From the NCBI RefSeq assembly GCF_039542905.1, contig NZ_BAABIS010000001.1:4774001-4838000 (forward strand): a stretch of 64,000 bases of DNA, read 5' to 3'. Shown piece by piece: positions 39,690 through 41,078 of this stretch; positions within the stretch are counted from its first letter, which is position 1; every line of letters starts with the position of its first letter. Under the pieces are notes generated by a model. That model saw nothing but the letters and a program-made list of their open reading frames with translations, did no database searches and was not told the DNA's origin. Source of the stretch: Kitasatospora terrestris. GTDB lineage: Bacteria; Actinomycetota; Actinomycetes; Streptomycetales; Streptomycetaceae. Both the position numbers and the translations under genes were made by a program.

Positions 39690-40106
39690 TCAGCGGCTGC
39701 CGGTCAGGGCGTCGCGGATCTGGGTGAGCAGCTCGACCTCCTTGGCCTCGGCCTCCAGCGCCTCCTCCTCGACGGTCTTGCGCTTGGCCATGAAGTGGTT
39801 CATCGGCAGGATCAGCAGGAAGTAGACGACCGCGGCGGTGATCAGGAAGCTCAGCGCGGCGCTGAGCACCGATCCCCACAGGATCCGGATGCCCGAGGTG
39901 ACGTTCCCCGAGGGGTCCACCACGCACGGCCCCTTGATGCAGGAGCTGTAGGCGGCCAGGTCCTTGCTGCCGAAGGCGCCGACCAGGGGGTCGATGATGC
40001 CCTTGACGAAGGCGTTGACGATGTTGGTGAATGCGGCGCCGATCACGACCGCCACGGCCAGGTCGATGACATTGCCGCGGAGCAGGAATTCCTTGAAGCC
40101 CTTCAT
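39690..40106 (-). CDS. mscL: Large-conductance mechanosensitive channel
   Basis: Homopentameric tension-gated emergency valve against hypo-osmotic shock, 138 residues. TM1 is GNVIDLAVAVVIGAAFTNIVNAFVKGIIDPLVG with the conserved Gly/Ala packing face, then a periplasmic loop with two Cys (SCIKGPC), TM2 WGSVLSAALSFLITAAVVYFLLIL, and a charged C-terminal helical bundle (KTVEEEALEAEAKEVELLTQIRD). The ATG start is 30 bases below the stop of the truncated SAF-type gene. G-rich DNA follows the stop. Confidence 0.95.
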   Translation of the reverse strand: MKGFKEFLLRGNVIDLAVAVVIGAAFTNIVNAFVKGIIDPLVGAFGSKDLAAYSSCIKGPCVVDPSGNVTSGIRILWGSVLSAALSFLITAAVVYFLLILPMNHFMAKRKTVEEEALEAEAKEVELLTQIRDALTGSR

Positions 40107-40136: not shown

Positions 40137-40403
40137 TTACGGGTGAAATCCGATCTTCCCGGTTGACGCGGCGACGCAGCCGGCGGGCGGCGCCGCGGGC
40201 GGTGGGCCGGGTCGCAGCGGGCCGGCCGCGAGTGCGGTGAGGGCCGCGATCAGCCCGGTGACCAGCACCCCGGGCCTGCGCCGGACCGCGTGCTGCAGCC
40301 GGTGGCGGCCGCCCCCGCCGCGTCGGATCGGCGGGAACGGCGGGATGTCGCGGCGCGGCGGCACGGCGGTCGCGGGCAGCGGGGGAACGAGGTACGTGGT
40401 CAT
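40137..40403 (-). pseudogene. Truncated SAF/RcpC-type membrane protein remnant
   Basis: 88-residue frame: a Pro-rich start with PPRRDIPPFPPIRRG, a basic stretch and one hydrophobic helix (GVLVTGLIAALTALAAGPL), then a stop after GKIGFHP. As I recall, streptomycetes carry at this place, between fmdB-type and mscL genes, a longer protein with this same N-terminus followed by a SAF (RcpC/CpaB-like) domain. Here the domain is absent and only 30 bases separate the stop from mscL. Hence a truncated gene or a remnant; a short functional membrane protein is the alternative. Other-frame Arg/Pro-rich frames overlap but look like shadows. Confidence 0.5.
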
Positions 40404-40526: not shown

Positions 40527-40556
40527 CCGGAGTACCCCACCCGGGTGAGAACGGGT

Positions 40557-40629
40557 GGGAACGCACACCCGGGCGGGAGCGCGCACCCGGGTGGGAACGC
40601 GCACCCGGGCGTGAGCGGGACACCCGGGC
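40557..40629. repeat. 18-bp imperfect tandem repeat array
   Basis: Four units, each a variant of GGGAACGCGCACCCGGGC: 40557-40574, 40575-40592, 40593-40610 and a degenerate fourth unit to 40629; a partial unit (CCACCCGGGTGAGAACG) precedes at 40539. Intergenic, between fmdB-type and the truncated gene. Confidence 0.75.
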
Positions 40630-40693
40630 GGGGGGAGAAAACGCGGAACCCGGCGGCGCCAGCAGGCACCACCGGGTTCCGGGAAGGCTTCGC

Positions 40694-40975
40694 TCAGCTC
40701 GCGGCGGGAGCGGAGGACGTCGACGTCGAGGAGGAGGGCGTCGACGAGGAGGTGGAGGCGGTCGAGGAGGACGAGGCGCCCACCGAGCTGCTCGACGAGG
40801 AGCGGCTGTCGGTGCGGTAGAAGCCCGAGCCCTTGAAGACCACGCCCACGGCCGAGAAGACCTTGCGGAGCTTCCCCTGGCAGTCGGGGCACGTGGTCAG
40901 TGCGTCGTCGCTGAACTTCTGCACCGCCTCGAGGCCGTTGCCGCACTCGGTGCACTGGTACTGGTACGTGGGCAC
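40694..40975 (-). CDS. FmdB-family zinc ribbon protein
   Basis: 93 residues. The N-terminal rubredoxin-like zinc ribbon has both CxxC pairs (YQCTECGNGLE and TTCPDCQGKL), then VFSAVGVVFKGSGFYRTDSR, the family's hallmark. The last ~38 residues are nearly all Ser, Thr and Ala. GTG 40975 is taken because the ribbon begins PTYQYQC right after it and GGAAGAGCAA precedes it; a longer frame to 41134 is not plausible. A CIRCE-like inverted repeat sits 24-50 bases upstream, suggesting heat-shock control by HrcA. Molecular function is unknown; the name derives from methanol-utilisation regulators. Confidence 0.9.
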   Translation of the reverse strand: MPTYQYQCTECGNGLEAVQKFSDDALTTCPDCQGKLRKVFSAVGVVFKGSGFYRTDSRSSSSSSVGASSSSTASTSSSTPSSSTSTSSAPAAS

Positions 40976-40998
40976 TTGCTCTTCCTCCTGCACTCCCC

Positions 40999-41025
40999 CT
41001 GGCACTCTCACCTGATGAGTGCTAA
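40999..41025 (-). promoter_or_regulatory. CIRCE-like HrcA operator
   Basis: On the reverse strand TTAGCACTC, 9 bases, GAGTGCCAG. The CIRCE consensus is TTAGCACTC-N9-GAGTGCTAA: the first arm is perfect, the second has two mismatches, the spacer is exact. It lies just upstream of the fmdB-type GTG. Confidence 0.7.
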
Positions 41026-41078
41026 CAACGGTCCATGATGCGGCATTCCGCCGCGTCAGTCCAGCGTCGGCCGCGCGG

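Follow-up and report, generated by a model that had tools for sequence, protein, structure and literature searches.

A CIRCE element directly upstream of an fmdB-type gene in the 64-kb window (the whole stretch of DNA that was analysed) is, with high confidence, a functional operator through which HrcA represses the streptomycete orthologue of Mycobacterium tuberculosis ruc, a gene with a SigR-type promoter whose product would be a zinc-ribbon redox chaperone. By analogy with M. tuberculosis, HrcA would bind this site, a SigR-type sigma factor would direct transcription and the protein would act as a chaperone in this lineage as well. The operator, the promoter and their surroundings, in window coordinates and in the order in which they are read, are as follows.

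41045 to 41049, minus strand: -35 element GGAAT of a SigR/SigH-type promoter, an exact consensus match
41024 to 41026, minus strand: -10 element GTT of the same SigR/SigH-type promoter; CIRCE begins with the last two bases of this GTT
40999 to 41025, minus strand: CIRCE operator (predicted HrcA binding site), TTAGCACTC-N9-GAGTGCCAG, matching at 16 of 18 arm positions
40984 to 40989, minus strand: a good Shine-Dalgarno, AGGAGG, between CIRCE and the GTG, recognized in the sequence
40694 to 40975, minus strand: fmdB-type (ruc) gene, GTG start, 93 aa, PF09723 and TIGR02605
40644 to 40681, minus strand: strong intrinsic terminator, a 17-pair stem followed by TTTT, directly 3' of the fmdB-type gene (z -4.4)
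39690 to 40106, minus strand: mscL, a conserved neighbour downstream of the fmdB-type gene, assigned by family match; co-regulation is not implied

The CIRCE site and the HrcA regulon

The minus strand from 41025 to 40999 reads TTAGCACTC-ATCAGGTGA-GAGTGCCAG (spacer letters atcaggtga) and was compared with the reference consensus TTAGCACTC-N9-GAGTGCTAA, for which an exact 9-base spacer was required. One arm matches at 9 of 9 positions and the other at 7 of 9, and the spacer is exactly 9 bases long, just as an earlier sequence-only reading of this DNA had described the repeat. No other CIRCE match with up to three mismatches occurs in the window, and 100 shuffles of the window yielded none. The 3' end of CIRCE is separated from the GTG start (position 40975) by 23 bases. 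A second GAGTGC half-site follows CIRCE at 40990-40995 (minus strand, GAGTGCCAGGGGGAGTGCAGGAGG) and widens this gap from the 9-11 bases seen in most streptomycetes; it has the appearance of a minor duplication confined to this spot.

A scan of the complete genome (8.57 Mb) for CIRCE at up to three mismatches recovered four sites, one before groES (L001), two before a groEL (L002) and one before the fmdB-type gene, while a reversed control pattern gave 0 matches. A perfect CTGGCACTC-N9-GAGTGCCAG palindrome was also located about 45 bases before hrcA (L091, G000 C1:2795450-2795476), consistent with autoregulation, in a region that also contains a dnaJ frame. When the genome was scanned with CTGGCACTC arms, 8 matches were obtained at three mismatches compared with 13 in the control; such matches are mostly chance, and therefore only those at up to two mismatches were used. 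HrcA is itself encoded in the genome (E 9e-55), and its targets there, as assigned by sequence, are groES, groEL, hrcA and the fmdB-type gene. We also considered as a second target an FmdB paralogue of 72 aa with a cysteine-bearing tail, CCGGGCCG (L006, G000 C1:2668231-2668380), and rejected it, its flanks having neither CIRCE nor a SigR-type motif.

An overlapping SigR-type promoter and its conservation

The sequence-only reading had placed the fmdB-type gene in the heat-shock regulon. That part is supported by the conservation of CIRCE described below; what it overlooked is a SigR-type promoter that shares bases with the operator and would imply redox control in addition to heat control. The promoter, GGAAT-N18-GTT, agrees exactly with the SigR/SigH consensus at N18 spacing, a consensus given as GGAAT-N18-GTT (PMC2375139) or GGAAT-N18-19-GTT (PMC9205884), and a SigR-family sigma factor is encoded in the genome (354 bits, cut-off 252). 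The CIRCE operator known from HrcA control of groES-groEL, groEL2 and hrcA-dnaJ also stands before these genes in this genome, but no GGAAY-N17-19-GTT motif was found at these other HrcA-target promoters (groES, groEL and hrcA); the pairing of a SigR-type motif with CIRCE is unique, among the HrcA targets here, to the fmdB-type promoter.

Conservation, the check that the sequence-only reading had proposed, was assessed in 81 loci, comprising the window and 80 related loci from named genomes, with CIRCE scored as conserved if at least 14 of 18 positions matched within 250 bases upstream of the gene. CIRCE was present at 70/81 actinobacterial fmdB-type promoters, which is not an unbiased rate as the loci were picked by protein similarity, compared with 0/2664 control segments from the same loci. 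The CIRCE-bearing loci span Streptomyces, Micromonospora, Mycobacterium, Nocardia, Frankia, Nocardioides and others, and across 24 promoters from Streptomycetaceae neither arm shows any change while the spacer varies. The SigR-type motif was found at 45/81 promoters (19/2664 control segments), mostly in a fixed phase: of the 43 matches that could be placed, 32 have an offset of -1 base between the -10 element and CIRCE, and most mycobacteria show -3. In a set of 200 family genomes drawn evenly, a strict fused site (GGAAT-N18/19-GTTAGCACTC-N9-GAGTGC) occurred in 163, nearly always as one copy and with 0 control matches, and all 22 Streptomycetaceae copies that were read out lay upstream of an fmdB-type gene. 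The strict site was absent from the remaining 37 genomes, 25 of which fall in one genus (g7); most genomes of this genus are without it while their relatives have it, which may reflect either loss or variant arms.

CIRCE is also missing before the gene in some actinobacteria that have both hrcA and the fmdB-type gene (for example L045, L073, L078 and L082), and HrcA control of the fmdB-type gene is therefore not universal. For a comparison of CIRCE with the absence of hrcA, hrcA was present in 38 of 40 genomes, leaving two without it. In other actinobacterial families (L099, L100, L101 and L094), the fused SigR/CIRCE pattern was seen before apparent small heat-shock (Hsp20-like) genes and, in L094, before a groES.

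Three other explanations of the site were weighed against these data. CIRCE might control the gene while a housekeeping promoter transcribes it, in which case GGAAT-N18-GTT would go unused and the gene would be under heat control without redox control. Many CIRCE-bearing relatives, for example Micromonospora (L028, L037, L055 and L056), indeed have no recognizable SigR motif; the 163 Streptomycetaceae genomes, however, have a perfect motif in phase with CIRCE, a promoter scan at the fmdB-type gene detected no sigma-70-type promoter, and SigH is used by M. tuberculosis ruc (PMC7448276). We regard this explanation as improbable. It is less probable still, indeed very unlikely, that the inverted repeat acts mainly at the RNA level, through a leader stem that influences transcript stability or access of the ribosome, and not as an operator in the DNA. 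CIRCE does lie near the Shine-Dalgarno sequence, and close to the start codon in most streptomycetes, but use of the SigR-type promoter would place the transcription start inside CIRCE and leave the full stem untranscribed, and CIRCE is also found upstream of groES, groEL and hrcA in this genome, as a DNA operator would be. A functionless chance similarity is already refuted by the conservation of CIRCE across many families and of its arms in Streptomycetaceae, in addition to the shuffles, from which 0 matches are expected.

The FmdB-type protein and M. tuberculosis Ruc

The protein encoded downstream of the putative HrcA operator scored 77 bits against TIGR02605 (FmdB family zinc ribbon, cut-off 31.3) and also matched PF09723. 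Its 93 residues comprise an N-terminal zinc ribbon (about 50 residues, with four cysteines arranged as CxxC...CxxC), the motif VGVVFKGSGFY, and a hydrophilic, low-complexity C-terminal tail that is 65% Ser/Thr and contains no cysteine. Among the 81 FmdB-type proteins, CxxC...CxxC is kept in all 81, the VG(V/I)VFKGSGFY segment after the zinc ribbon is nearly invariant and tail cysteines occur in none; the sequence of the tail is not conserved among relatives. Sequence comparison with solved structures gave no convincing match. The protein aligns with the segments of Rv0991c that are encoded by published primers and is the streptomycete counterpart of M. tuberculosis Ruc (Rv0991c).

The gene is directly followed by a strong terminator and is therefore probably expressed as a single-gene transcript; control via co-transcription with mscL, which lies in the examined flank at 49/81 fmdB-type loci, is disfavoured by the same terminator. 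Short repeated CCCGGGTGCGCG-like units were noted at window positions 40540-40640, in the interval that separates fmdB from an 88-aa frame (40137-40403, ahead of mscL and with no family match).

In M. tuberculosis, ruc is repressed by HrcA and induced by heat and by SigH, the SigH and HrcA sites overlap, and the gene is one of four HrcA targets, the others being three Hsp60/Hsp10 genes (PMC7448276). The suggestion in the sequence-only reading that fmdB would be a novel HrcA target fails, as these four published targets include an fmdB-type gene; in mycobacteria the connection of HrcA with such a gene is already established. The assignment of the gene to HrcA and heat shock in that reading is strengthened by the same precedent, together with the conserved CIRCE and the presence of hrcA in the genome. 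The present analysis goes further by showing how widely the site is conserved and by identifying the fused SigR/CIRCE promoter of streptomycetes. No report of such a streptomycete promoter was found in the literature covered, which lay outside SigR target tables, and nothing was found that joined HrcA, CIRCE and FmdB, or FmdB, Streptomyces and heat shock.

Ruc binds one zinc through its cysteines and loses it on oxidation; it prevents aggregation in its oxidized form, aids DnaKJE-mediated refolding and is copurified with DnaK, and its C-terminal tail takes part in its function (PMC7448276). By analogy, this supports the idea, also raised in the sequence-only reading, that the window protein could be a proteostasis factor. 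Both the window gene and M. tuberculosis ruc (Becker et al. 2020, PMC7448276) encode a four-cysteine FmdB-type zinc ribbon with a disordered hydrophilic tail, carry an HrcA site and a SigR/SigH-type promoter that overlap immediately 5' of the start, and share a regulon with groES and groEL genes; mscL is close by in mycobacterial relatives too. The two differ in that the streptomycete CIRCE ends in GAGTGCCAG rather than GAGTGCTAA and begins one base downstream of the first base of the -10 element, compared with three in mycobacterial relatives, and in that the streptomycete tail is richer in Ser/Thr; chaperone activity is a prediction for the streptomycete protein. Hsp33 likewise combines four-cysteine zinc binding with oxidative activation, a mechanism proposed for Ruc by analogy, but its sequence is unlike that of Ruc and the two structures are apparently unrelated (PMC7448276).

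A model for combined heat and redox control

We propose that the ruc orthologue is transcribed from the SigR-type GGAAT-N18-GTT promoter, with its -10 element and probable start site inside CIRCE. HrcA bound to CIRCE would cover both and block RNA polymerase, and therefore both release of HrcA and free SigR would be needed for full expression. The first event would occur when unfolded protein occupies GroEL, as during heat, with HrcA being released as a result; the second would occur when thiol oxidation causes the anti-sigma factor to let go of SigR. The zinc-ribbon chaperone itself would be inactive while its four cysteines hold zinc. Oxidation would lead to loss of the zinc, whereupon unfolded proteins would be held for DnaK with the help of the disordered tail. 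Taken further, the fused SigR -10/CIRCE site may constitute a hard-wired AND gate, in which full chaperone output in Streptomycetaceae is reached only when heat-type misfolding and thiol oxidation coincide, a tentative proposal that we put forward as possible rather than probable.

Under the favoured reading, HrcA repression of a SigR-type promoter, a small zinc-ribbon protein annotated just as FmdB family would belong to the core chaperonin regulon in streptomycetes. Control of ruc by HrcA together with a SigR-type promoter would be a conserved actinobacterial arrangement and not a mycobacterial peculiarity, and Streptomyces would offer a laboratory-friendly system for testing how heat and redox signals jointly control a chaperone.
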